Shown here: piece by piece, positions 622-61,311 of the stretch | How the letters are laid out: the number at the start of each line of letters is the position of its first letter | How positions within the stretch are numbered: the stretch's first letter is position 1 | Source: Okapia johnstoni | Lineage: Eukaryota; Chordata; Mammalia; Artiodactyla; Giraffidae | DNA length: 64,000 nucleotides | Direction: 5' to 3' | Assembly (NCBI GenBank): GCA_024291935.2 | Contig: CM044310.1 | Span: forward strand, 81,838,713-81,902,712 | Made by a program: the position numbers and the translations under genes | Notes under the pieces: generated by a model | What the model was told of the DNA's origin: nothing | What the model saw: only the letters and a program-made list of their open reading frames with translations | The model's database searches: none

Positions 622-745
622 ACTTTTTTTCTTTCTGCCTTCACCTGGAGGCTTGCAGGATCTTTAGTTCCCTGACCAGGGATCGAACCTGTGCCCCCAG
701 CAGTGGAAGTGCAGAGTCTTAACCACCAGACTACCTGGGAAGTCT
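622..745 (-). repeat. CHR-type tRNA SINE, antisense, short form
   Basis: Reverse complement shows a tRNA-Glu-like head with the phrase 'ACTTCC.. GGTGGT', a B-box like GGTTCGATCCC and the 'CTGGTCAGGGAACTAAA' segment, followed by an A-rich tail (T-run at 622-630). Known ruminant/cetacean pol III retroposon family. Confidence 0.75.
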
Positions 746-9510: not shown

Positions 9511-12500
9511 CCCTTCATGGATCACGGCCTTGTCCCGGTGAAGGGGCTTGTGTAACTCAGTGAAGCTATGAGCCATGCCATGCAGGGCCACCCAAGATGA
9601 ACAGGTCATAGTGAAGAGTTCTGACAAAACCTGACCCACTGGAGAAGGAAATAGCAATCCACTCCAGTATTCTTGCCTGGAGAACCTCACGGACAGTATG
9701 AAAAGGCAAAAAGATATGACATCGGAAGATGAGACCAGGTCAGAGAGTGTCCAAAATGCTACTGGGGAAGAGCAGAGGGCAATTACTAATGGCTCCAAAA
9801 AAAAAAATGAAGTGACTGGGCCAAAGCAGAAATGATGCTCAGTTGTGAATGTGTCTGGTGGTGAAAGTAAAATCCGATGCTGTAAAGAACAGTATTACAT
9901 AAGAATCTGGAATGTTAGGGCCACAAATCAAGGTAAACTGGACATGGTAAAGTAGGAGATGGCAAGAGTAAACATCAACATCTTAGAAATCAGTGAACTA
10001 AAATGGACGGGAACGGGTGAATTTAATTCAGATGACGTCATATCTACTACTGTGGGCAAGAATCCTTTAGAAGAAATGGAGTCGCCCATAGAGTCAACAA
10101 AAGAGTCCAAAATGCAGCATTTGGGCGCAATCTCAAAAATGACAGAATGATGTTAGCTCTTTTCCAAGGCAAACCATTCGACATCACAGTAATTCAAGTT
10201 TTGCCCCAACCACCAATGTTGAAGAAGCTGAAGTTGACCAGTTCTATGAAGACCTACAAGACCTTCTAGAACTAACATCAAAAAAAGATGTCCTTTTCAT
10301 CATAGGGGGCTGGAATGCAAAAGTAGGAAGTCACGAGATACCTGGAGTAACAGGCAAGTTTGGCCTTGGATAACAAAATGAAGCAGGGCAAAGGCTAACA
10401 CTTTTATCAAAAGAACACACTGGTCATAACACACACTCTTTTCCAACAACACAAGAGATGATTCTACACATGGACATTGATTATATTCTTTGCAGCCAAA
10501 GATGGAGAAGCTCTATACAGTCAGCAAAACCAAGATCTCTGGAGCTGACTGTGGCTCAGATCATGAACTCCTTATTGCCAAATTCAGGCTTAACTTGAAG
10601 AAAGTAGGGAAAACCACTAGACCATTCAAGTATGACCTAAATCAAATCTATTATTATTGTACAGTGGAGATAATGAATAGATTTAAGGGATTATATCTGG
10701 TAGACAGAGTGCCTGAAGAACTATGGACAGAGGTTCATAACCTTATATAGGAGGCAGTGACCAAAACCATCCACAAGAGAAAGAAATGTAGGAAGGCAAA
10801 GTGGTTCTCCGTGAAGGTTTTACAAATATTAATAGCCAAGGAAAGAAGAGAAGCAAAGGGCAAGGGAGAAAGGGAAAGATATACCCAACTGAATGCAGAG
10901 TTCCAGAGAATGGCGAGGAGAGATAAGAAGGCCTTCTTAAATGAACAATGCAAGGAAATAGAGGAAAACAGTAGAATGGGAAAGACTAGAGATCTCTTCA
11001 AGAAAATTGGAAATACCAAGGGAATATTTCATGCAAGGATGGGCACGATGAAGGACAGAAATGGTATGGAGCTAATAGAAACAGAAGATATTAAGAAAAA
11101 GTGGCAAGAATACACAGAAGAACTACATAAAAAAGGTCTTGACCCAGATAACCATGATGGTGTGATTACTCACCTAGAGCTTGGAATCTGAAGTCAAGTG
11201 AGCCTTAGGAAGCATTACTACAAACAAAGCTAGTGGAAGTGATGGAATTCCAGCTAACCTATTTCAAATCCTAAAAGATGATGCTGTTAAAGTATGTACT
11301 CAGTATGCATACTGAGTATGTCACTTAGCACATCAGCAAATTTGGAAAACTCAGCAGTGGCCACAGGATTGGAAAAGGTCACTTTTCATTTCAATCCTGA
11401 AGAAAGGCATTGCCAAAGAATGTTCAAACTACGGTACAATTGTGCTCATTTCACATGTGAGCAAGGTAATGCTCAAAATCCTTCAAGCTAGGCTTCAACA
11501 GTACATGAACCAACAACTTCCAGATGTACAAGTTGGATTTAGAAAAAGCAGAGGAACCAGAGATCATATTGCCAACATTTGTTGGATCATAGTTTTTCTA
11601 TGGTAATTCCAGAAAAACACCTACTTCTGCTTCCTTGACTACGTGAAAACCTTTGACTGTGTGGATCACAACAAACTGTGGAAAATTCTTCAAGAGATGG
11701 AAATACCAGACCACCTTACCTGCCTCCTAAGCAACCTGTATGCAGGTCAAGATGCAACAGTTAGAACCGGACATGGAACAACGGACTAGTTCAAAATTGG
11801 GAAAAGAGCACATCAAGGCTATATATTGTCACCTTTATTTAATTTATATGCAGAGTACATCACGCAAAATGCCAGGCTGGATGAAGCTCAAGTTGGAACC
11901 AAAACTGCCAGGAGATATAGCAACAACCAGAGATATGCAGATGATACCACTCTAATGGTAGAAAATGAAGAGGAACTAAAAAGCCTCTTGATGAGGGTGA
12001 AAGACAAGACTGAAAAAGCTGGCTTAAAATTCAACATTCAGAAAACTAAGATCATGGCATCTGCTCCCACCAGTTCATGGCAAACAGATGGGGAAACAAT
12101 GGAAACAGTGACAGATTTTATTTTCTTGGGCTCCAAAATCACTGCGGATGGTGACTGCAGCCATTAAATTAAAAGATGCTTGCTCCTTGGAAGAAAAGCT
12201 ATGACAAACCTATTAGAAAGCAGAGACATCACTTTGCCCACAAGGGTCCCTCTAGTCAAAGCTATGGTTTTTCCAGTAGTCATGTATGGATGTGAGAGTT
12301 GGACCATAAAGAAGATTGAGAGCTAAAGAATTGATGCTTTTGAACTGTGGTGCTGGAGAGGACACTTGAGAGTCCCTTGGACTGCAAGGAGATCCAGCCA
12401 GTCCATCCTAAAGGAGATTAATTCTGGATATTCATTGGAAGGACTGATGCTGAAGCTCCAATACCTTGGCCACCTGGTGGGGAGAGTCACCTCACTGGAA

Positions 12501-42081: not shown

Positions 42082-43096
42082 TGTTGTTGTTATTCAGTTG
42101 CTCAGTCGAGTCCAGCTCTTTGTGAACCCATGGATTGCAGCACACCAGGCTTCCCTGTCCTTCACCAGCTCCTGGAGTTTGCCCAAGTTCGTGTCCATTG
42201 AATCAGTGATGCCATCCAACCATCTTGTCCTCTATCGTCTCCTTCTCCTCTTGCCTTCAATCTTTCCCAGCATCAGGGTCTTTTCCAATGAGTCAGCTCT
42301 TTGATTCAGGTGGCCAAAGTATTGGAGCTTTGCCTTCAGCATCAGCCCTTCCAATGAATATTCAAGGTTGATTTTCTTTAGGATTGATTGGCTTGAACTC
42401 CTTGCTGTTCAGGGACTCTCAAGAGTCTTCTCCAACACCATAGTTCAAAAGCATCAATTCCTTATGGTCCAACTCTCACATCCATACACAATTACAGAAA
42501 AACCATAGCTTTGACTGTATGGAAATTTGTAGGTAAAGTAATGTCTCTGCTTTTTAATATGCTGTCTAGGTTGGTCACAGCTTTTCTTCCAAGGAGCAAG
42601 TGTCTTTTAATTTCATGGCTGCAGTCACCATCTGCAGTGATTTTGGAGCCCAAGAAAATAAAGTCTGTCACTGTTTCCATTATTTTCCCATCTATTTGCC
42701 ATGAAGTGATAGGACCAGATGCCATGATCTTCGTTTTTTGAATACTGAGTTTTAAGCCAGCTTTTTCACTCTTCTCTTTCACCTTCATCAAGAGGCTCTT
42801 TAGTTCCTCTTCACTTTCTGCCATAAGGGTGGTGTCATCTGCATATCTGAGGTTATTGATATTTCTCCCGGCAATCTTGAATTCACCTAGTGCTTCATCC
42901 AGCCTAGCATTTTGCATGATGAGCTCTGCATATAAGTTAAATAAGCAGGGTGACAATATACAGCCTTGATGTGCTCCTTTCCCAATTTTGAACCAGTATG
43001 TTGTTACATGTCCAATTCTAACTGCTGCTTCTTGATCTGCATACAGATTTCTTCGGAGGCAAGCGAGGTGGTCTGGTATTTCCATCTCTTTAAGAA
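42082..43096 (-). mobile_element. 5'-truncated BovB, antisense, with TSD
   Basis: About 1 kb of the BovB 3' third in antisense. TSD TCATTACGATT (42071-42081) and TCATTATGATT (43097-43107), one mismatch. Confidence 0.95.
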
Positions 43097-43100
43097 TCAT
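42492..43100 (-). pseudogene. BovB reverse-transcriptase C-terminal fragment, open for 202 codons
   Basis: The longest open frame in the window, and it is transposon-derived. It covers the RT from the thumb-side of motif B (GCILSPCLFNLYAE) through the YADD active site (42834-42845) to the C-terminal GSKITADGDCSHEIKR block. The endonuclease and N-terminal RT are missing through 5' truncation at insertion, so no functional enzyme can be made. The lack of stops probably means a fairly young insertion. Confidence 0.9.
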
Positions 43101-43107
43101 TATGATT

Positions 43108-43296
43108 ACCTTCTATTTTATAGCAATTGATTATGATATCCATTCACGGTAAAAATATAGCATTTCCCTTTTTAAGGACATTTTCAACTTTTTAAAAGGG
43201 AAGGAAGAAAAACACTAAGAAATAACAGATTTTTACTTGGTAAAAACACAACACACTTTCCTACCTATTGCTACATCTTTGTACCTTCAACAGCCC
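43108..43296. other. Unique sequence, no gene seen
   Basis: AT-rich spacer between BovB and a DNA-transposon relic. Confidence 0.4.
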
Positions 43297-43490
43297 AGAA
43301 CTGTGCTGACCATTACACAGTAGCAACCAGTCACATATGACTACCATGCAATTACAATACTGTAGTCATTTAAATTAAAAATTAAATAAGATAAAAAATT
43401 CAGTGAGTCAGTCACACCATCCCCATTTCAAGTGCTCGATAGTCGCATGTGGTGATGGCTACCATGTTGGACAATGCAGCTATAGAACAC
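43297..43490. mobile_element. hAT-type non-autonomous DNA transposon
   Basis: The imperfectly palindromic ends (GTAGCAACCAGTCACATATG and CGCATGTGGTGATGGCTACC; outer CTGTGCTGACC and GGACAATGCAG) and AT-rich middle match the same broad family as 2100-2400. Confidence 0.6.
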
Positions 43491-43692
43491 TCTTCCCATC
43501 ACAGAAAATTCTACTGGTTAGCATGGGCCTGGAATGCCACTCACGGCTCACCTGGCTACTCGCCTGGCAGTGGTGATAAAAGTCATGGTTTCTCCCCAAG
43601 TAATGGTCAATTGCCAGACGGGGGAGGGGGGCATCCCAAAGGAGGAGGCCTCTTGGAAGGGGCTGCAGGTATCAGGGGACAGGTAACAGACC
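43491..43692. other. Unique sequence, no gene seen
   Basis: No repeat or coding pattern recognised. Confidence 0.4.
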
Positions 43693-43694
43693 TT

Positions 43695-43899
43695 TTGTGC
43701 TCAGTCGCTCAGTTGTGTCTGACTCTGTGAGACCCCATGGACTGTAGCCTGTCAGGCTCCTCTGTCCATGGGATTCTCCAGGCAAGACAACTGGAGTGGG
43801 TTGCCATTTCCTCCTCCAGAGGATCGTCCGAACCCAGGTATCGAGCCCACATCTTCTGTGTCTCCTGCATTGGCAGGTAGATTCTTTACCTGCTGAGCC
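43695..43899 (-). repeat. Bov-tA SINE, antisense, lacking its head end
   Basis: Antisense Bov-A and most of the tRNA part. The outermost ~12 bp of the head are missing where the adjacent BovB begins. Confidence 0.88.
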
Positions 43900-43901
43900 T
43901 T

Positions 43902-46900
43902 CAGTTCAGTTTTGTCATTCAGTCATGTCCGACTCTTTGCGACCTCATGAACTGCAGCACGCCAGGCCTCCCTGCCCATCATCAACTCCCTGAGTCCACC
44001 CGAACCCATGTCCATTGAGTCGGTGATGCCATCCAGCCATCTCATCCTCTGTCATCCTCTTCTCCTGCCTTCAATCTTTCCCAGCATCAGGATCTTTTCA
44101 AATGAGTCAGTTCTTCGCATTAGGTGGCCAAAGTATTGGAGTTTCAGCTTCAGCATCAGTTCTTCCAATGAATATTCAGGACTGATTCCCTTTAGGATGG
44201 ACTGGTTGGATCTCCTTGCAGTCCAAGGGACTCTCAAGAGTCTTCTCCAACACCACAGTTCAAAAGCATCAATTCTTCAGCGCTCAGCTTTCTTTATAGT
44301 CCAACTCTCACATCCATACATGACCACTGGAAAAAACATAGCCTTGACTAGACGGACCTTTGTTGGCAAAGTAATGTCTCTGCTTTTTAATATGCTATCT
44401 AGGTTGGTCACAACTTTCCTTCCAAGGAGTAAGGGTCTTTTAATTTCGTGGCTGCAGTCACCATCTGCAGTGATTTTGGAGCCCATAAAAATAAAGTCAG
44501 CCACTGTTTCCACTGCTTCCCCATCTATCTGCCATGAAGTGATGGGACCGGATGCCATGATCTAAGTTTTCTGAATGTTGAGCTTTAAGCCAACTTTTTC
44601 ACTCTCCTCTTTCACTTTCATCAAGAGGCTCTTTAGTTCTTCTTCACTTTCTGTCATAAGGGTGGTGTCATCTGCATAGCTGAGGTTATTGATATTTCTC
44701 CCAGCAATCTTGATTCCAGCTTGTGCTTCCTCCAGCACAGCATTTCTCATGATGTTCTCTGCATATAAGTTAAATAATCAGAGTGACAATATACAGCCTT
44801 GACGTACTCCTTTTCCTATTTGGAACCAGTCTGTTTTTCCATGTCCAGTTCTAACTGTTGCTTCCTGACCTGCATACAAATTTCTCAAGAGGCAGGTCAG
44901 GTGGTCTGGTATTCCCATCTCTTTCAGAATTTTCCACAGTTTATTGTGATCCACACAGTCAAAGGCTTTGGCATAGTCAATAAAGCAGAAATAGATGTTT
45001 TTCTGGAACTCTCTTGCTTTTTCGATGATCCAGCGGATATTGGCAATTTGATCTCTGGTTCCTCTGCCTTTTCTAAATCCAGCTTGAACATCTGGAAGTT
45101 CACAGTTCACGTATTACTGAAGCCTGGCTTGGAGACTTTTGAGCATTACTTTACTAGCGTGTGAGATGAGTGTAATTGTGGGTAGTTTGAGCATTCTTTG
45201 GCATTGCCTTTCTTTGGGATTGGAATGAAAACTGACCTTTTCCAGTCCTGTGGCCACTGTTGAGTTTTCCAAATTTGCTGGCATATTGAGTGCAGCACGT
45301 TCAGAGCGTCATCTTTTAGGATTTGAATTAGCTCAACTGGTATTCCATCACCTCCACTAGCTTTGTTCATAGTGATGCTTTCTAAGATGCTTTCTACTTG
45401 ACTTCACATTCCAGGATGTCTGGCTCTAGGTGAGTGATCACACCATTGTGATTGTCTGGGTCATGAAGAACTTTTTTGTACAATTCTTCTGTGTATTCTT
45501 GCCATCTCTTCTTAATATCTTCTGCTTCTGTTAGGTCCCTACCATTTCTGTCCTTTATTGAGCCCATCTTTGCATGAAATGTTCCCTTGGTATCTCTAAT
45601 TTTCTTGAAGAGATCTCTGGTCTTTCCCATTCTATTGTTTTCCTCTATTTCTTTGCACTGATCGCTGAGGAAGGCTCTCTTATCTCTCCTTCCTATTCTT
45701 TGGAACTCTGCATTCCTTTGCTTTTCACTTCTTGTCTTTTCACAGCTATCTGTCAGGCCTTCTCACACAGCCACTTTGCTTTTTTGCATTTCTTTTTCTT
45801 GGGGATGGTCTTGATTCTTGTCTCCTGTACAATGTCATGAACCTCCATCCATAGTTCATCAGGCATTCTGTCTATCAGATCTAGCCCTTTAAATCTATTT
45901 CTCACTTCTACTGTATAGTCATAAGGGATTTGATTTAGGTCATACCTGAATGGTCTAGTGGTTTTCTCCACTTTCTTCAATTTCAGTCTGATTTTGGCAA
46001 TAAGCAGTTCATGATCTGAGCCACAGTCAGCTCCTGTTTTTTTTTTTGCTGACTGTATAGAGCTTCTCCATCTTTGGATGTAAAGAATATAATCAATCTG
46101 ATTTCTGTGTTGACAGTCTGGTGATGTCCATGTGTAGAGTCTTCTCTTGTGCTGTTGGAATAGGGTGTTTGCTATGACCAGTGCGTTCTCTTGGCAGAAC
46201 TCTGTTAGCCTTTGCCCTGCTTCATTCTGTACTCCAGGCCAAATTTGCCCGTTACTCCAGGTGTTCTTTGACTTCCTACTTTCGCACTCCAGTCCCCTAT
46301 AATGAAAAGGACATCTTTTTTGGGTGTTAGTTCTAGAAGGCCTTGTAGGTCTTCATATAACTGTTCAACTTCAGCTTCTTCGGCGTTACTGGTTGGGGCA
46401 TAGACTTGGATTACCATGATATTGAATGGTTTGCCCTGGAAACGAACAGAGATCATTCTGTTGTTTTTGAGATTGCATCCAAGTACTGCATTTCAGACTC
46501 TTTGTTGACCATGATGGCTACTCCATTTCTTCTAAGGGATTCCTGCCCACAGCAGTAGATATAATGGTCATCTGAGTTAAATTCACCCATTCCAGTCCAT
46601 CTTAGTTCACTGATTCCTAGAATGTCGATGTTCACTCTTGTCATCTCCTGTCTGACCACTTCCAATTTGCCCTGATTCATGGAGCTAACATTCCAGGTTC
46701 CTATGCAATATTGTTCTTTACAGCATCGAATTTTGCTTCTATCACCAGTCCCATTCACAACTGGGTGTTGTTTTTGCTTTGGCTCCATCCCATCATTCTT
46801 TCTGGAGTTATTTCTCCACTGATCTCCGGTAGCATATTGGGCACCTACCGACCTGGGGAGTTCATCTTTCAGTGTCCTATCTTTTTGCCTTTTCATACTG

Positions 46901-47223
46901 TTCATGGGGTTCTCAAGGCAAGAATACTGAAGTGGTTTGCCATTCCCTTCTCCAGTGGACCACATTCTGTCAGAACTCTCCACCATGACCTGTCCGTCTT
47001 GGGTGGCCCCACACGGCATGGCTTAGTTTCACTGAGTTAGACAAGGGTGTGGTCCATGTGATCAGATTGGCTAGTTGTCCATGACTGTAGTTTCAGCCTG
47101 TCTGCCCCCTGATACCCTCTCTCAGTGCCCACCATCTTACTGGGTTTCTCTTACCTTAGAAGTGGGGCCTCTCTTCACGGCTGCTCCAACAAAGCATGGC
47201 CGCTGTCCCTTACCTCCCTTACC
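43902..47223 (-). mobile_element. Full-length BovB LINE, antisense, with TSD
   Basis: About 3.3 kb covering 5' UTR (sense starts near GACAGCGGCCATGCTTTGTTG), endonuclease, RT and 3' UTR (antisense start CAGTTCAGTTTTGTCATTC). Likely TSD CTGAGCCTT at 43893-43901 and 47224-47232. Length agrees with a complete BovB. Confidence 0.93.
44050..47019 (-). pseudogene. BovB endonuclease-reverse transcriptase ORF, broken
   Basis: In transcription order the pieces are 47019-46453 (endonuclease start: DILGISELRWTGMGEFNSDD), 46456-46205 (QVYAPTSNAEEAEVEQ; GDWSAKVGSQ, with Ser where GDWN has Asn), 45980-45753 (linker), 45630-45394, 45370-45146 (RT start: GDGIPVELIQILKDD), 45110-44778 (FDCVDHNKLWKILKEMG; RQGCILS), 44750-44562 (YADD at 44667-44678) and 44558-44277. 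Frameshifts and stops separate them, so the copy is inactive. It is closer to the family consensus than the copy at 9.5-12.7 kb. Confidence 0.92.
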
Positions 47224-51540: not shown

Positions 51541-51587
51541 AATTAATTAAATAGAGAAGAGAAGGGACAGGGCCAAATATCTTCCAC

Positions 51588-51855
51588 TTGTCCTTTCCTG
51601 GTCTCCAGGTAGTCGATGAGTAGGTCCAGCTCATTCCTGTACAAATGTTTGCCCTCACTCAACAGGAAGAAAAGACGCTGGATGCCCAAGGGACAGTGTA
51701 GCTGGTAAGGCACTCCTGGGCCATAAAGTCATTTACCAGATCTCCAGCCCTCAGAGAAATGCCAGTGTGTTTCTGCTGCTCCCATTTAGCGAAAAATCTC
51801 CTGTATTCTTCAGCCACCAGCACCAGGGCATTCTCCAAAGGCATATGACGATGTA
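51588..51855 (-). pseudogene. NCOA5-like exon: LxxLL (NR-box) segment, decayed
   Basis: NCOA5 is a nuclear protein that binds oestrogen receptors through one LxxLL motif. Read from 51855 down, the block gives HRHMPLENALVLVAEEYRR, which matches HRNMPQADAMVLVARNYER of NCOA5 as I recall it. After a one-base frame change near 51700-51720 it continues GIQRLFFLLSEGKHL and LIDYLETRK, against AIQSLINLLADNRYL and IINYLRERK. LFFLL is an LxxLL motif in the same place as LINLL. Directly upstream is a pyrimidine-rich tract (CTCTTCTTGTCCCT) ending in GG (51857-51856) instead of AG. With AG there, the phase would match the donor at 56157. The 3' boundary is uncertain. Frameshift plus lost acceptor mean this copy is very likely non-functional. 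Confidence 0.72.
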
Positions 51856-51876
51856 CCAGGGACAAGAAGAGCCTGC

Positions 51877-52092
51877 GTGTGCCTGTGTGCTGAAGTCACT
51901 GCAGTCGTGCCCAACTCTTTGCGACCCCATGGACTGTAGCCTGCCAGGCTCCTTTGTCCATGGACTTTTCCAGGCAAGAACACGGGAGTGGGTTGCCATG
52001 CCCTTCTCCAGGGGATCTTCCTGACCCAGGGATCAAACCCATGTCTCTTATGTCTCCGGCATTGGCAGGAGGTTCTTTAATGCTAGCGCCAC
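51877..52092 (-). repeat. Bov-tA SINE inserted beside the exon acceptor
   Basis: Antisense Bov-A and tRNA head (GGCATTGGCAGGAGGTTC..CTAGCGCCACC). Exact 14-bp TSD CAAGAAGAGCCTGC at 51863-51876 and 52093-52106. The target is the polypyrimidine tract just upstream of the NCOA5-like exon. Confidence 0.95.
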
Positions 52093-52106
52093 CAAGAAGA
52101 GCCTGC

Positions 52107-53868
52107 TTTACATCAAATGGGTGCCCTGGTTTCTTTTAAAACACATTTACACATTTAAAACACATTTAAAAGACAAGGGGAAAAGCAATCAGAAAAGAAC
52201 ATAGTTAACCTAAGGATATGATGTTGAAACTGTTTCAGCTTTCAGTGCAGATGTGACTATCTACTGATTCAAGATACTGGGATCCTCAACAGCAGGTGCC
52301 CTGTTGGATTTCAAAATCAAACAGTACATTCTGTTACAAAGAGACAGAATGTGACAGCTTGGTTTAGGGTTTGAAGGCAAACCCTTACTTCATAATTGGA
52401 TAGTTTCACGCTAAGCTAATGAGAGAGAGACACAGAGACAAACAGTGAGAGCAAGGAAGGGAGAGATAGAAAAGGTGGGGGGAGGAAGAGAGGAAGAGAG
52501 AAAGAAAGAGAAAGAGTGAGAGATGGGAGAGGGAGGAGGGGAGGAATAGGTGGCCTGCAAGTCAATGGGAATTCTTATGGCTAAACAAAGCTAGCCTACA
52601 AATAAGACAGGATGCAACGTAAACCACCACTGGCCACTTGAAAAGCTAAGAGAAACAACAACAAAACCCCTAAAGGGGAAGGTTTGCATTTGGTTTCAGC
52701 AATGAGGGTATATGACTTGAGTGTGATTCACGGAAGAAGCAACCAGGCCCTGAGAATGGCAGCCTTTAGACAGTAGAGTAGGGTGAAAAAAAAAACAAAG
52801 AGTGAGGCAGGGGCTGCTGTTTTTCATTATGAACCTTGTAGTGCCTATCTTTTAACTTTGTAAAAGCAATAGAGAAAAGGCAGACAGACAGACACGCCGT
52901 GCAGGGCCTCCAGGCTCTGTCACTGTAAGATGAGGAGTCCTTTACCTGGCTCCAGTCTTCGGCTCAGGTCTATGAGATCTTAAACAGTACTGAAAGCCCT
53001 TCCAGGTCAGATCAGCAGAGCTCCAACTACTACATAAAAAATAAATTCTAGACACCAAGAATAGCTTTCATATAACTTCCTGGCTGTAGTCAATGCAACG
53101 TTACCTTCTGATCTCTCCCAAGCTGATCTACAGAGAGTAAGACTGAATAAAAGTTTAATTTTAAATGGGAGGCCTCTACCCTATCTTGCCATATATCACT
53201 GGCTTCTGAACAAATTTATGCCCCAAGGGACACCACAGAGCTAATGTGGAGATTACGGTACTTAGCTAAATCTTAAACTGTGTTTATTAAGATTACATTT
53301 AGGAAGCAATATGAACATATATTTCTCTTCAGGTGTTGAAGTTTTGTTGTTTGACTATTTTAAATATTTGTCTCAGTGCAAAAGCAGCTCCACACACTTT
53401 TGAATAATGACTGCATGCAAGGTATGAAGCAAGCTGCTGGCTACAAAAGCATTGTTAGAGAGAGCCCAGCCAAGATAAATCTTGCTAAAATAGATGGAGC
53501 TTATAGGAGGAAACAACATGCTCTATTTACCTATGATCTGAGTTCAGGAATTAAATTCATGGATAAGAAATGAAACATTTATCTGTTCATACTATTCTGG
53601 ACATGAAAAAGAAACTATCTTCTGAATTTGTTGCATGTTAAAAAATAGGTTATGCTTTTTCTGAAGGAGTGTTGGGTTTTTTTTAAGTATTTTAGTATTC
53701 AACAAATTATTCAATCTACTTGAGTGATAATCTTCTAAACGATCTTGCAGGAACATAACATGCAAATAACCACATGTGATTAACCTTTTGCACAACCTGT
53801 TCAAGTTACACCGTTCCCCACCCTAGCCTAGGAGACTGGGATTTGTGATTTTTGAAACTATGCATTTT
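52107..53868. other. Unique sequence with a purine-rich tract
   Basis: 52424-52545 is almost all A/G on the plus strand (GAGAGAGAGA..GGAAGAGAGGAAGAGAG). A 65-codon plus frame at 53376-53573 is not recognised. If the NCOA5-like gene model is right, this is intronic. Confidence 0.45.
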
Positions 53869-54070
53869 GAGGACTTCCCTGATGGTCCAATGGTTAAGAC
53901 TTCACCTTCTAATGCAGGAGATGTGTGTTCAATCCCTGATCAGGGAGCTAAGATCCGATATGTCTCACGACCCACCAAAAAACCAGAACATAAAAACAAC
54001 AGAAGCAAGACTGTAACAAATTCAATAAAGACTTCAAAGATGGTCCACACCAAAAATTTTTTCTAAAAAC
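53869..54070 (+). repeat. CHR-related tRNA SINE
   Basis: Head AGGACTTCCCTGATGGTCC, then CCAGAACATAAAAACAACAG and AATAAAGACTTCAAAGATGG. Same tail subtype as 35411-35600. Confidence 0.85.
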
Positions 54071-54182
54071 TTATTAAAAATTGAATTTTCTTTTACATTT
54101 TCAGAACTTATATATGACATAAATATGGTTTAGTCTTACTGTTTCTTTAAAATAAATTAGACATTTCCTATGATTAGAAAAG

Positions 54183-54418
54183 GGGCTTCCCAGGTGGCAC
54201 TAGCGGTAAAAAATAAAAACCACCTGCCAATGCAGGAGACATAAGAGATGTAGTTTCCATCCCTGGGTTGGGAAGATCCCCTGGAGGAGGACATGGCAAC
54301 CCACTCCAGTATTCTTGCCTGGAGAATACCCTGGACAGAGGAAGCTAGAGGGCTACAGTCCGTGGGGTCACAAAGAGTCCGACATGACTAAAGCGACTTA
54401 GCACACATGCACACATGC
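54183..54418 (+). repeat. Bov-tA SINE
   Basis: tRNA head GGGCTTCCCAGGTGGCACTAG and Bov-A body. TSD TTAGAAAA on both sides. Confidence 0.93.
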
Positions 54419-54426
54419 TTAGAAAA

Positions 54427-54986
54427 ACTGTAATTTCATACTCATGAGTCAGAACTGGCTAGGGGGGTGTGCATGGCTACAAAGAGGCAAAGCAAATGGA
54501 ATGGTCAGAATAAAAGATATCCTGGCCTCCTCCCAAGACAGGAAGCAAGTTTCTTCACTACCGTCTTTTCACACCCAATATCATGGCTGGATTATAGACC
54601 ATCAGTCCTACACTGGCCTCTCTGCAGGCTCCAGGAGCTATAAGCAGTATATAAATTCAGCTACTAGTGTTCCACAAGGTCTCTGCCCAAAGCAAATGTC
54701 TCCTGAGTCAGTAACGAAAACCCTACACTGCTAAGGAGACTTGAGCTGGGACAGATGATCCAGGGCCTGCAGGAGAAGTGGGCCTGGTTGCTGCTCAAAT
54801 GAACAGAGAAAAGAAGCAGAGTTGGCCTGACATCCTATAGACATCCTGGCACAGGAGGAACTCAACACATTAGGACTGAACAGAAAATTTCCAAGAGCGT
54901 CTGCAAAGATGAGAGGACCAGAAAACCCACGCTTCTCTGGGGTTTGGCTCTAGGCAAGCTACTAAGGACCTTCACAAGCAGGCCCC
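54427..54986. other. Unique sequence, no gene seen
   Basis: A 96-codon plus frame at 54444-54734 is not recognised. Confidence 0.4.
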
Positions 54987-54996
54987 CTCCTCTCTT

Positions 54997-55393
54997 TTTT
55001 AAAATTTATTTATTTATATATTATTTAAAAATCTTCAATTGGTATGCTGTTTTCTAATTTATTTATTTTGGTTGCCCTGGGTCTTTGTTGCTGCACACAG
55101 GTTTTCTCTAGTTTCGGAGAGCAGGGGCTACTCTTTGCTGCAGTGCGCTGGCTTCTCATTGCAGTGGCTTCTCTTGCTGTGGGGCACAGGCTCTAGGCAG
55201 GTGAGCTTTAGTAGTTGTGGCCCACAGGTTCAGTAGTTGCAGCTCACGGGCTCTAGAGAGCAGGCTCAATAGTTGTGGCACATGGGTTTAGTTGCTCTGC
55301 ATCGTGTGGAATCTTCCTGGACCAGGGATCAAACCCATGTCTCCCGCATTGGCAGGCGGATTTCCATCCACTTTGCCACCAGGGAAGTCGCTC
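54997..55393 (-). repeat. CHR SINE, antisense, extended tail
   Basis: Antisense CHR preceded by an unusually long AT-rich tail (54997-55070). Exact 10-bp TSD CTCCTCTCTT at 54987-54996 and 55394-55403. Confidence 0.93.
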
Positions 55394-55551
55394 CTCCTCT
55401 CTTGAGGTAGCGGTTCTGACCAGGATTGAGAGGTTGAGGGTAGTTCAGGATGTGTGCATCTGCTGAAGTCTGGGTATTTTAGGGGGAAAGAGTTCATTTC
55501 TGTGGACTCTCATGAACCTAAGAATAGTTAAATGTTTGAGATGTCCTATAT

Positions 55552-55770
55552 GGGCTTCCCTGGTAGCTCAGACAGTAAAGCGTCTGCCTACAATGCGGGA
55601 GACCCAGGCTCAATCCCTGGGTCAGGAAGATCCCCTGGAGAAGGCAATGGCAACCCACTCCAGTATTCTTGCCTGGAAAATCCCATGGACCGAGGAGCCT
55701 GGTAGGTTATAGTCCATGGGATCGCAAAGAGTCAGACATGACTGAGCAACTTCACTTTCACTTTTCACTT
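55552..55770 (+). repeat. Bov-tA SINE
   Basis: Head GGGCTTCCCTGGTAGCTCAG and full Bov-A body ending in the CTTTCACTTTTCACTTTC tail. Confidence 0.94.
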
Positions 55771-56157
55771 TCAGAGAAGGAAAAGTTGGCAAGAAAGGTA
55801 GCATAAGAGAATGAAGGAGATGATGAACAGGGGGTCTTATTATCACCAAGTATAGAAAAGGTGATGGTGGGACCTGGTCAAAAGTTCTACATAAGAGAAT
55901 CGAATGGGTCACATAATATTTTGGATGAATATTTTTGATTCTTACATAATAAGCAGTAAAGACGATTTAAGTTTCAATTGTCTCTAGTCACCAAAGAGTA
56001 CTCTGTGATAACCGTCCAAGTACTGCTTCCTAACTGGATTCAGTTTAGTTACTGACAAATGTGAACCTTCAAAGTGAACCAGCATACAAAGAAAAAATAT
56101 TACATTTTAAAAGCAGGATCTATTTTAAGCAATTGTTCTACATTGAGCTAGACTTAC
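55771..56157. other. Unique sequence, probable intron of the NCOA5-like gene
   Basis: Immediately 3' (minus strand) of a GTAAGT donor at 56157-56152. No repeat recognised. Confidence 0.4.
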
Positions 56158-56357
56158 TTTTGACAGACTCATGAAGCATAATGATGATACAAGGGAAAAG
56201 TTTAACATTAGACCGTTTGACAAGAATACAAAATGGGGATCCATCATCTTTAACTTCCTGGAGTGTCCAAGTGAGGCCTGACTCAAAGGCAAGGTGAATC
56301 ATTTCCACTATGAGGCCATGATCCTGCAACCGATGACCCATGACTATTGCATATTCC
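56158..56357 (-). pseudogene. NCOA5-like exon: anticodon-binding-like domain, intact
   Basis: 200 bp encoding 66 codons plus one base at each side, fully open, starting EYAIVMGHRLQDHGLIVEMI and containing DGSPFCIL. Against human NCOA5 as I remember it (DYAESVGRKVRDLGMVVDLI; GGSPFAIV) it aligns over 66 residues without a gap, with about 18 identities counted by hand and many conservative changes, so it is a relative and not a recent copy. The acceptor is a T-run ending TTTTTTTTAAG at 56358 and the donor is AAAA/GTAAGT at 56157. The first base completes a codon begun in the upstream block at 61183 (AG+G = Arg, against Lys in NCOA5). It is typed as a pseudogene only because the flanking exons are damaged; this exon itself shows no lesion. 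Confidence 0.75.
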
Positions 56358-56835
56358 CTTAAAAAAAATACATACACACACAGACATACACACCCACAAA
56401 TGCAAGAAAAATGTGAGTTACTTTCAATCAAACAACTGAAAAAAATCTATGTCACAAAGCAATTGTTCCCTAGATACTTTGATGCACCACAGATTTAACT
56501 AAGTGAGGGGATAGATACTATATTTTTATTGTATTTAGGTAAGTGAAGTGGAAGATGCTGTATTTTTCTAAAAATCATCCATGCCGTACAACTTGTTTTC
56601 ATTCTCAGGCACATTGAAAACATTCTAGGGTGTGTTATTCGTCTGATAGAATCAGTTAAGAGGACTGGAGGCAACCCCAACCAAAAGAAAACTCTTTTTT
56701 TTTAAAATGTAGTGCCCTCATTTGGTTGGTTATGTACATAATTTTATAAAGGAAGCAGAATATGTTAAAGCCTTATTTTTGTGGGGTAAGCACCATGAAT
56801 GTGGGAGGCATTTTTCAAAACGGAATCATTCACGT
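56358..56835. other. Unique sequence, probable intron
   Basis: A short CA/TACA-rich stretch at 56370-56400 lies next to the exon's polypyrimidine tract. No other feature. Confidence 0.4.
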
Positions 56836-56842
56836 GTTATTT

Positions 56843-57087
56843 GATGTTGTTCAGTCGCTCAGCAGTGTTCGACTCTTTGTGACCCCATGGACTACAGCAC
56901 AACAGGCTTCCCTGACCTTCACTATCTCCCCGAGTTTGCTCAAACTCATGTTCATTGAGTCAGTGATACCATCCAATCATCTCACCCTCTGTCGCCCCCT
57001 TCTCCTCCTGCCTTCAATCTTTCCCAGCATCAGGGTGTTTTCCAATGAGTTGGCTCTTCCCATCAGGTGGCCACAGTATTCATCAAA
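56843..57087 (-). mobile_element. 5'-truncated BovB 3' end, antisense
   Basis: GTTGTTCAGTCGCTCAGCAG..CAGGTGGCCACAGTATTC. Short TSD GTTATTT at 56836-56842 and 57088-57094. Confidence 0.92.
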
Positions 57088-57094
57088 GTTATTT

Positions 57095-57361
57095 AAATTG
57101 AAATTTAAAGACCATGAGAGAAAATTTTAAACTGTTTTGAAGAAAAAAAAAACTGTTTTGAAGAACAGATACGACTATTATCTTCAGAAAAATGAGAGAA
57201 TTCTCATTCACAATTAGTTCCTGGGAAAGACCAGTACTTGTTGAGGTTATTACCACTTGGACAATTCCTTGCTAAAGAATAAATGGATGATACTGCAGTT
57301 AACCATCTCATCCAACATCAACTATCATCCCAGAACTAGCCTTGGATCAAAACCCAGTCAC
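57095..57361. other. Unique sequence with a small direct duplication
   Basis: AAACTGTTTTGAAGAA occurs twice at about 57129-57167. No gene. Confidence 0.45.
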
Positions 57362-57363
57362 TG

Positions 57364-57689
57364 GGGCTTCCCTAGTGGTCTAGTGGTTAAGAGTTCATCT
57401 GCCAATACAGGAGACACAGGTTCGATCGCTGGTCGGGGAAGATCCCACCTACCGTGCATGGAGCAGCTAAGCCAATGTGCCACAACTACTGAGCCCATGA
57501 GCCACAACTACAGAAGCCCGCATGCCCCAGAGCCAATGCTGCACAAGAGAAGCCACCACAATGAGAAGCCTACCCACCACACCAAAGAACAGCCTGGCTC
57601 CACACGGTGCAACTGGAGAAAAGCCCGTGCAGCAGTGAAGACCCAGCACAGCCCAAAATCAATCAATCTTAAAAAAAAAAAAAAAAAAA
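57364..57689 (+). repeat. CHR SINE, full length
   Basis: Head GGGCTTCCCTAGTGGTCTAG, B-box GGTTCGATCGC, full body and a ~20-base oligo(A) tail. Confidence 0.94.
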
Positions 57690-57719
57690 GACCCAGGGTC
57701 ATCTCATCACCCATTTCCT

Positions 57720-58345
57720 TAGCCTTGGTCCTCAAGTCCTGAAGAATCTGTCCTGGACCTCTCCCTTGGGTTTCTTCCATTCCTGCCCAACACTTTCTGA
57801 GAAGCTGCAATGGCCTCCTACCACATCTTCTAGCCCTGATTTTGTTTCTCACTCCAATCCATCCTACATGTCAATCTGAGTATTACTTTCAAAAATGCCA
57901 CAGTAACTGTTCAGCATCCTAAACTTCTCACACTTGCTTCCCAAGTCCTGGCAAGAGGGGGCTCCATCCTATCACAAGAGGTCTTGTAACCCACTGAGCT
58001 TCAGTTGTCTTGTTTCTCTTCCCAAATTTAATGTCTTGTGATCTCAGGACAATCAACTCCTCTCACACTTTTTCCAGCTGTGCCTTCCTCGCCATTCTGT
58101 TTGCTAGACTCTTAGCAGTCCTCACCTCAAAGGCCCAGCTCAAATGATATTATTCCCTGAAATCTTGATTCAACTTGTTGGCCCCATAAAGGTAATACTC
58201 TTCTTGTATGTATATTCTGCTTAGAGTACAGTCTATATTCTGCTTGTTATTTATACAGGTATTATCTTAGACTACATGTGGTGCAAATAGGGATTGTTAT
58301 TTAACTATCTTTAGGTTTCTCTCTGTGCCCAGCACAGAGCTTTAC
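57720..58345 (+). mobile_element. L2 LINE 3' region, long copy
   Basis: Sense L2 text throughout (CTGTGCCTTCCTCGCCATTC; AAGGCCCAGCTCAAATG; CTCTCTGTGCCCAGCACAG), the longest L2 in the window. Confidence 0.7.
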
Positions 58346-58445
58346 ACAGAAGAGCACATAAAATGTGCATTTTGTAAATAAAAAATTAACATGATGGCAG
58401 GAAAAATGCTTTTCTGGCAATTTAGGAGAGTATGGATGATTTCAG

Positions 58446-58659
58446 GATTCCCTGGTGGCTCAGACAGTAAAGAGTCTGCCCACAATGTTGGAGGCCTGAA
58501 TTCGATCCCTGGGTCCGGAAGATCCCCTGGAGAAGGAAATGGCAACCCACTCCAGTATTCTTGCCTGGAAAATCCCATGGACGGAGGAGCCTGGCAGGCT
58601 TCAGTACATAGGATCGCAAAGAGACAGACCTCACTGAGTGACTACACTTTCTTTTTTTC
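58446..58659 (+). repeat. Bov-tA SINE with TSD
   Basis: Head GATTCCCTGGTGGCTCAGAC and Bov-A body. Exact 14-bp TSD ATGGATGATTTCAG at 58432-58445 and 58660-58673. Confidence 0.96.
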
Positions 58660-58673
58660 ATGGATGATTTCAG

Positions 58674-59718
58674 AAAATAAATTCAAAAGGAAAACAAGAA
58701 AAACATGACATGGTTCATATTTACAGAGTGAGAGCCCGTGAGTCAAAGTTATCACCCACAAAAAGCTATCACAAAAATAATTCACATTTAGATGACACGA
58801 TTTGAAAATTAATTACTGCTTTGGAATATAAAGGAATGAATGAGCTAACGAATTGATCACTACATATCTTCCTAACACGGAAGAGACGAGCAGGCCTGCT
58901 GAACGGCCTAGTTCACAACTTCCCTGGGAGAGGAAGACCCCACACAGCAAGAGCTCCTCAACTGCATCTACCAGGGTCTGATTCCATGGCTAAGCGCCAG
59001 GCCTGCAGAACACCAGGCAGAGGGGTGACCTCCACTCCAGATGGAGTGGGGAGAAGAGCACCCCCAGGACCCCTCCTCCCCACAGAACTCTGCCCTCTAG
59101 TTAATACTGGAGATGGGAAGGTGACAAGAATACCAGGGTGGGGAACGTCACACAGCAGCTGGAGTTACTCGCGATTCTAAAAGACGCGCAAGATGCTTCC
59201 AGAAGGGTATGATTCTTGCTACAAGTTTTGAGAAAGCTAAATGCAGTCCAAGATTAATGCAGTTTCCCTGGCTGATGCAGAGTATGGTAGTAAAGTTGAC
59301 AAATGCTGAGGGAAAACAAAGCTACGAGGCATGCTGAGTCTTTACTGCCTCTGGGTTCAAAATCAGTTTAAATTAGTACATGATCAAATTAATCCAGGGC
59401 ATGCCTGGTCGTCTTTCAATTATTAAAGGGAAATTCCATAATTTTTCTAATGTAAAGGGAACTGGCCTCCCCCGCCCTCCGCACACTATGACTGACCTCA
59501 TTTCTTCCACCGTGCTGTCTCCCAAGGTCCAACCCGAATAACCCTCCAAACGAAACGGAGCTACAATTTTGCTTTCACGAACTCAGAGAAAAGATGCTAC
59601 CGACAAATAGATATCTGTAGAGGAGATATCACAGAATAAAAATTCTGAGGCAAGTCTAAATTGGATGTTTTCTCCTTTTTTTTTTATTCTTTCATTCTTC
59701 TAGCACCAGGGCTGCATT
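58674..59718. other. Unique sequence, probable intron
   Basis: No repeat or coding pattern recognised. T-run at 59677-59687. Confidence 0.4.
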
Positions 59719-59719
59719 T

Positions 59720-59968
59720 TTGTTTGTTTGTTTAATATTTATTTACTTACTTGGCTGCATCACGTCTTAGCTGCAACACATGGGATCCCTGTCATATCAG
59801 GTGGATGCTCTAGGTGTGGTCCCTGGGCTCCTGAGCACCTGGGCTCAGGAAGTTGCAGCATGCTGGCTCAGTTGCTCCTCGGCACAGGGGATCCAAGTTT
59901 CCCAACCAAACCCACATCCCCTGCATTACAAGGCAGATTCTCAACGACTAGACCACCAGGGAAATCCC
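59720..59968 (-). repeat. CHR SINE, antisense
   Basis: Begins with (GTTT)n, then antisense CHR to GACTAGACCACCAGGGAAAT. Confidence 0.9.
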
Positions 59969-60445
59969 ATAAATTGCATATTTTCATATTTACAAAAGTA
60001 AGAAAACCAACGCTGCCTTAATTGATGGTTTATGTTTTGTGTACACCTGGGCTCCTGTTCAGGAATTATCAGTTCTCATCATGCCTGGATCTTCCCTCTC
60101 AGTACCTACCTAACCTGGAGTAACTGTATGCACCTCCAGCCAACCAGTGGTCTACGAGCCAGACTCTCTGCCAAGCACCATGAAACCCAACATAATCCAG
60201 AGACATAGTTATCATCGCATATTAAGTCTCCATCTGCCCTCAAGTGCCAGCCAATGGTGTGCAGGATCAGGGCCCTGCAGGAGCCCAGAGTACAAGCTGG
60301 TCACTGACCAGGCTGCAGCTGTGCTTAAGCAGCCCTTGTGAGTCAGGCAGGCGGAGAAGAGGGAACAGCATCCCATGTTGAAACCAAAACAGCACAAAGG
60401 CTAAGAGGAATTCAACATGCAGTTAAGAAATGAGAGGACCTGAAC
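59969..60445. other. Unique sequence, no gene seen
   Basis: No repeat or coding pattern recognised. Confidence 0.4.
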
Positions 60446-60446
60446 C

Positions 60447-60745
60447 TCCCTGGTGGTACAGTGGATAAGAATCCACCTGCCAATGTAGGGGACACGGGTT
60501 CGAACCCCGGTCTGGGAAGATTCCACAGGTGGCAGAGCAACTAATCCTGCACACTATAACTATTGAGCCAGCGTACCTAGAGCCTGTACTCCACAACAAG
60601 AGGGGCCACGGCCATGAGAAGCCTGTGCACCTCAATGAAGGGTAGTCCCCGCTCACTGCGACTAGAGAAAGCCCGCACACAGCAAGGAAGACCCAGTGCA
60701 GCCAAAAATAAACAAGTAATTTTTTAAAAGAAAAAAAAACAAGAG
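60447..60745 (+). repeat. CHR SINE, full length
   Basis: Head ACCTCCCTGGTGGTACAGTG, B-box GGTTCGAACCC, full CHR body and A-rich tail. Confidence 0.94.
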
Positions 60746-60779
60746 AACCCTTCTCTAAAGATCAGTGAAAACAATTTTT

Positions 60780-61060
60780 TAGCACACTACACTAGACAGT
60801 CGGTGCCCGGGGCAGGGGTTTGTCTGTTATGTTCATCCAAGTATCCTCAGAGCTTAGATCTGTGCCTGGCATATGGGCCCCAACCTTAAAAATAGCTTTG
60901 GTCTTTTTTCTGATTATAAAATTAATAGATGCTCACTGTAGAAAACTCAGGCAATACAGAAAAGCTGAATAAGACCGTCATCTTCAGAAATCTCCCCATC
61001 TACTGAATGCTTCTACCACCATCAGTAAACCCAACAGCATAATTCCCATAATTCCTAACT
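60780..61060 (+). mobile_element. L2 tail followed by old LINE-like text
   Basis: 60790-60885 is L2-like (GTTTGTCTGTTATGTTCATC..CTGTGCCTGGCATATG). 60898-61010 (TCTGATTATAAAATTAATAG..AACTCAGGCAATACAG) resembles an old L1-derived UTR. Confidence 0.5.
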
Positions 61061-61182
61061 CAAGGTTCTAGAAAAGCATTCCGAGAATTTCAACCTTCAG
61101 CGACTTATGTATGTAAAGCTGAAGACTTCTTGATTTGGTTTTACACAACCTCATTTGACACTCTAAAAAGAAATAAATCTAC

Positions 61183-61311
61183 CTCTGCTCTTTCTCGACA
61201 GAAACAATAATTAGCAATCTGAAGACCTCTCTCGGTCATGTTCTTTCTGAATCACTTGATAATAGAGGTGGAAAAACCACCCTTTCTGAGCATTCCTGCC
61301 ACTGGCATCAT
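61183..61311 (-). pseudogene. NCOA5-like exon: charged helix and start of the conserved domain, frameshifted
   Basis: The minus frame gives HLYYQVIQKEHDRERSSDC, which aligns with RQYFEEIQRRFDAERPVDC of NCOA5 as I recall it (Y, IQ, D, ER and DC identical). The next codon is TAA. One missing base at that point explains it: in the adjacent frame the text continues IIVSVEKEQ, against VIVVNKQT. The block then ends AG/GTAGAT at 61183, in the exact phase that the exon at 56357 needs. The 5' boundary (TATATTCCAG at 61312) is a guess. Minus-strand sequence upstream stays open to 61527 in another frame, but I cannot relate it to NCOA5. The alignment is short, but order, strand and phase support it. Confidence 0.6.

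Follow-up and report, generated by a model that had tools for sequence, protein, structure and literature searches.

We examined a window of 64,000 nucleotides (nt) from the okapi, Okapia johnstoni (contig CM044310.1, positions 81,838,713-81,902,712), whose minus strand carries a locus of three exons related to NCOA5, a gene also called CIA or KIAA1637. Coordinates given without a contig name are those of the window. An earlier note on this DNA had described three blocks as a decayed relative of NCOA5 that had kept its introns, and on reading the sequence all three were found where the note had placed them, co-linear and on the minus strand. The true NCOA5 of the okapi, called host NCOA5 below, lies on another contig (C24:62977334-62979129).

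The three exons and their relationship to NCOA5

Exon 1 (61183..61311, minus strand, like the other two) encodes a charged helix ending in FFHLYYQVIQKEHDRERSSDC, followed by a frame-shifted tail. With a slash marking the splice junction, its acceptor reads ATATTCCAG/AT (phase 1) and its donor AG/GTAGAT (phase 2). Exon 2 (56158..56357) is 200 nt long, has an open frame and encodes 66 amino acids of an anticodon-binding-like domain; its splice sites are canonical, with the acceptor TTTTTTTTAAG/G (phase 2) and the donor CAAAA/GTAAGT (phase 1). Exon 3 (51576..51855) is read as HRHMPLENALVLVA...MAQE at 51853-51713 and, in another frame, as PLGIQRLFFLLSEGKHL...LETRK at 51692-51594. The limit at 51576 is the endpoint of our reading and not a splice donor; the similarity to NCOA5 stops at about 51594. 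The introns measure 4825 nt between exons 1 and 2 and 4302 nt between exons 2 and 3, and in a self-comparison of a 294-kb region none of the three exons overlapped any repeat.

A search of 177,635 distinct PDB sequences with the translation of exon 2 gave a single match at E-values up to 10, human NCOA5 (1v95, E = 2.5e-5), in line with the resemblance first proposed. When the three blocks were read through, with X at the frame breaks, 1v95 was again the sole PDB match (E = 1.1e-15), in an alignment running from SDC to beyond HRHMP...VLVAEEYRRF. The identity of the middle exon had been put at about 27% over 66 residues by a hand count in the earlier note; tblastn gives 29% over 62 residues. We also searched the okapi genome (2.376 Gb, 1604 contigs) with an NCOA5 core sequence whose domain part agrees with 1v95 essentially letter for letter. 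At an E-value limit of 1 there were four matches, three at the NCOA5 locus on C24 and one at exon 2 of the present locus (E = 0.018); no other intact relative was matched in the genome by this query. Exon 2 alone matched no Pfam-A family, and a genome-wide search with PF03129 (HGTP_anticodon) returned three matches, on C9 and C14, which include neither NCOA5 nor the window. In prokaryote and viral contig collections, exon 2 gave 45 and 7 pattern matches, respectively, none of which was confirmed as a relative.

As controls, the 1394 stop-to-stop open reading frames (ORFs) of at least 30 amino acids in the window were scored against the NCOA5 core. Ranks one to four went to the four pieces into which changes of frame divide the three blocks (scores 122, 97, 82 and 59), and the fifth ORF scored 54. 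The best score was 68 in the flanks (4999 ORFs; 229,817 letters including assembly Ns) and 59 in the reversed window (1386 ORFs), so that no control ORF of either kind scored as high as exon 2 or as either half of exon 3. None of 2000 shuffles reached the observed score for the helix, for exon 2 or for either half of exon 3; for the nine-residue tail of exon 1, 1141 of 2000 did as well or better, and it adds nothing to the evidence. We conclude that the blocks are homologues of the NCOA5 core.

The exon architecture was then compared with that of host NCOA5. Phases agreeing across both introns had been reported before; this was confirmed, and the boundary before exon 1 agrees as well, the phases being 1, 2 and 1 (before exon 1, between exons 1 and 2, between exons 2 and 3) in both genes. 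The distance between the acceptor and the last base of the DC codons is 98 nt in both, and exon 2 has the same 200 nt as exon B of host NCOA5. Exon A of host NCOA5 is 127 nt long and has the acceptor and donor phases of exon 1 here; the introns of host NCOA5 are 1816 and 1363 nt long. The end of exon 3 lies beyond comparison, with an assembly gap in host NCOA5 and no donor seen in the locus. In our view this shared architecture is stronger evidence than percentage identity.

The likeness to NCOA5, host gene and human 1v95 alike, thus extends over a helix, an anticodon-binding-like domain and a following helical segment, and includes the exon boundaries, the phases, the length of exon 2 and the position of an LxxLL motif, also known as the nuclear-receptor box. 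The LFFLL of the locus, in the shifted frame, aligns to LINLL of NCOA5 without a gap at the motif. The locus differs from NCOA5 in being only 33% identical over 141 aligned codons, in its broken frame and lost AG acceptor and in lying on a different contig; in addition, the RD-rich N-terminal and the Q/S/P-rich C-terminal exons of NCOA5 were not detected here.

Disabling changes

The decay reported in the earlier note is seen at several points. In exon 1, the helix frame meets a TAA stop (61211..61213, minus strand) right after ...SSDC, and from DC to the donor there are 31 nt instead of the 29 nt of NCOA5, so that the frame is lost. In exon 3, the frame switches between 51713 and 51692 (from ...MAQE to PLGIQRLFFLL), where NCOA5 has one continuous frame. 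The 3' splice site of the intron between exons 2 and 3 (51856..51857, minus strand) is GG where NCOA5 has AG (CCCTGG/TACATCG here, CCTACAG/AGCATCG in NCOA5). The third block is therefore present and NCOA5-like, as had been claimed, but it occupies two frames, and the AG is absent from its 5' border.

A Bov-tA-like short interspersed nuclear element (SINE) of 216 nt (51877..52092, minus strand) lies 21 nt upstream of exon 3, flanked by the 14-nt target duplications GCAGGCTCTTCTTG at 52106-52093 and 51876-51863. Outside CpG sites it diverges by 10.7% (over 203 nt) from the consensus of 50 local copies, whose median is 10.6%. At assumed neutral rates this corresponds to an age of 35-71 million years, possibly an overestimate owing to a mixture of subfamilies in the consensus.

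A normal product is not expected because exons 1 and 3 are out of frame, the AG acceptor is missing and the SINE sits in the pyrimidine tract of exon 3. The locus most likely makes no normal protein today. It would nevertheless be a working gene, whole or truncated, if the frameshifts were assembly errors and another acceptor served exon 3. Such a candidate, CACAG/GCACAC, is found at the end of the SINE, 29 nt before CAT by a hand count, and would stay in phase with exon 2. Upstream of HRHMP, ORF 51662-51895 continues without a stop across the edge of the SINE, and exon 2 itself is open, with consensus splice sites. Assembly errors do occur: in host NCOA5 a one-base frame disruption adjoins an N gap in exon 3 (C24, near 62977334-62977586) and is likely to be one. 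A single frameshift can be explained in this way, but at the present locus several different lesions agree. About 0.6 kb of exon contains two frameshifts, a missing AG and, 21 nt from exon 3, a SINE, and the window, unlike the gap in NCOA5, is free of Ns. We therefore regard a working gene as improbable. In its retained introns and several disabling lesions the locus resembles a unitary pseudogene, the term for a gene that one lineage has lost while others keep it in working order; its decay may, as the earlier note proposed, be particular to this lineage.

Origin and age of the locus

When the locus was aligned with NCOA5, codon positions 1, 2 and 3 differed in 66, 56 and 86 of 141 ungapped codons (47%, 40% and 61%). 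Identical residues were found at 47 of the 141 positions, and 27 of these 47 use different codons; DNA identity in the aligned codons is 48-56%, depending on the block. Because fewer differences fall on positions 1 and 2 than on position 3, long coding constraint before the death of the gene is indicated, and this constraint together with the heavily changed silent sites points to an old split from NCOA5. The gene was probably constrained as coding sequence over a long period before its death.

The explanation that we prefer, with a probability of about 0.9, is that the locus is the remnant of an NCOA5 paralogue that arose at the DNA level with its introns, upstream of ZNF423 (see below), coded for a long time and is now dead. 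The ancestral gene would have encoded the helix, an anticodon-binding-like domain of the NCOA5 type and, after it, a helical segment carrying the LxxLL motif (LFFLL). Judging from the family, its product may have been an NCOA5-like nuclear co-regulator that bound partners through this motif and the domain. The gene would have remained under constraint for long and then been lost through lesions whose order we infer. A broader proposal is that a second gene of the NCOA5 family existed upstream of ZNF423 in vertebrates, split off before the placental mammals, kept the domain and the LxxLL motif, was lost here and persists intact and unrecognised in certain living mammals or other vertebrates; we see the odds on this proposal as even.

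Several observations weigh against the paralogue explanation or narrow its basis. The helix of exon 1, with a score of 59, does no better alone than the control maxima of 68 and 59, and a simple tblastn search of the window placed it at E = 0.63, under one unrelated match at E = 0.42; taken alone it is not significant, and it is assigned chiefly by its position, its phase and its exact length. The first half of exon 3 placed NCOA5 on top in the PDB, at a non-significant E of 0.2, close to unrelated phosphatases (0.38 and 0.43). The genome-wide query missed exons 1 and 3 of the locus, which shows its limited reach, and other decayed pieces could have been missed as well. An intact exon 2 with consensus splice sites is mildly unexpected in a gene long dead. 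The split from NCOA5, which may have preceded the placental mammals, was placed by a comparison within the okapi genome. Finally, the 294 kb yielded neither an N-terminal nor a last exon resembling those of NCOA5, these exons being of low complexity and hard to detect. Two stretches of the host N-terminal exons gave a best tblastn match at E = 0.12, on the plus strand and about 160 kb away, in a search of low power; for the Q/S/P-rich last exon the best minus-strand matches, on the expected side, had E-values of 0.22 and 0.64 at distances of about 150 and 70 kb, with nothing else supporting them.

A processed retrocopy of NCOA5, later split by insertions, would also be decayed and would have transposable elements between its blocks, as is the case here. 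The blocks, however, break exactly at the exon junctions of NCOA5, in the same phases, and the splice sites around exon 2 are canonical. Because the intron positions and phases, the length of exon 2 and the distance from acceptor to DC match those of host NCOA5, a retrocopy is excluded in our judgement, as the earlier note had argued from the retained introns, and the low identity of 47 in 141 codons speaks against it too. Another possibility is that NCOA5 was duplicated recently as part of a segment and that the copy has decayed neutrally ever since it arose, which would account for the introns and for the failure of the core query to match another paralogue in the genome. We consider it very unlikely: DNA identity would hardly be as low as 48-56%, pure neutral decay is not expected to yield the observed pattern of codon positions, and exon 2 retains an open frame of exactly 200 nt. 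Chance likeness of unrelated ORFs, which might be argued from exon 1 or the first half of exon 3 taken singly, we judge to be already refuted by the PDB E-values, the ORF ranking, the controls on exons 2 and 3 and the identical exon architecture.

The paralogue explanation suggests that ancestors of the okapi once had two NCOA5-type genes. To our knowledge, NCOA5 counts as a single gene; among the papers matched, no title names a paralogue of it, which does not establish that none is in print. If the locus was indeed a second member of the family, built like NCOA5 in its exons and introns, a co-regulator of the NCOA5 type must have undergone duplication and subsequent loss, which would bear on the purpose of the tRNA-synthetase-like domain of NCOA5; ZNF423 could then serve as a synteny anchor in finding intact copies. 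Should it turn out to be no more than a fossil of ruminants, it would be a pseudogene of the ordinary kind.

Surroundings of the locus

The minus strand to the left of the window carries two exons, at about -94 kb and -141 kb from its start, that are assigned to ZNF423 on the strength of a match of about 90%, in gene order, to the human sequence. In human, the interval upstream of ZNF423 lies between that gene and CNEP1R1. In the PDB, the ZNF423-like ORF gave only weak zinc-finger matches (best E = 0.0042). Since these exons lie left of the window on the minus strand, the NCOA5-like locus is placed 5' of ZNF423 and on the same strand. CpG islands with GC-rich ORFs, situated some 34.5-39 kb before the start of the window and upstream of both exons, are possibly the ZNF423 promoter.

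On the other side, beyond the window end, a CpG-rich tandem repeat (67001-68250 in window coordinates) is followed by sequence resembling the 5' region of a long interspersed nuclear element (LINE). The repeat, some 6 kb upstream of exon 1, was considered as a promoter of the NCOA5-like gene and rejected for its tandem copies and its apparent likeness to the 5' end of a transposable element.

Within the window, broken reverse-transcriptase ORFs of a BovB-like LINE were found at about 10700-12200 (plus strand) and 42500-47000 (minus strand). Together with the Bov-tA-like SINEs they mark the DNA as ruminant. Both Rfam (668-740, 41.3 bits) and ARAGORN call a tRNA-Gly(TCC)-like gene at 667-740 (minus strand), which may be a genuine tRNA gene, a pseudogene or the head of a SINE. 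ARAGORN, run in its bacterial setting, additionally reported a 'tRNA-Pyl' (CTA) at 53876-53948 (plus strand), for which Rfam made no call at the gathering score and which is probably the tRNA head of a SINE.

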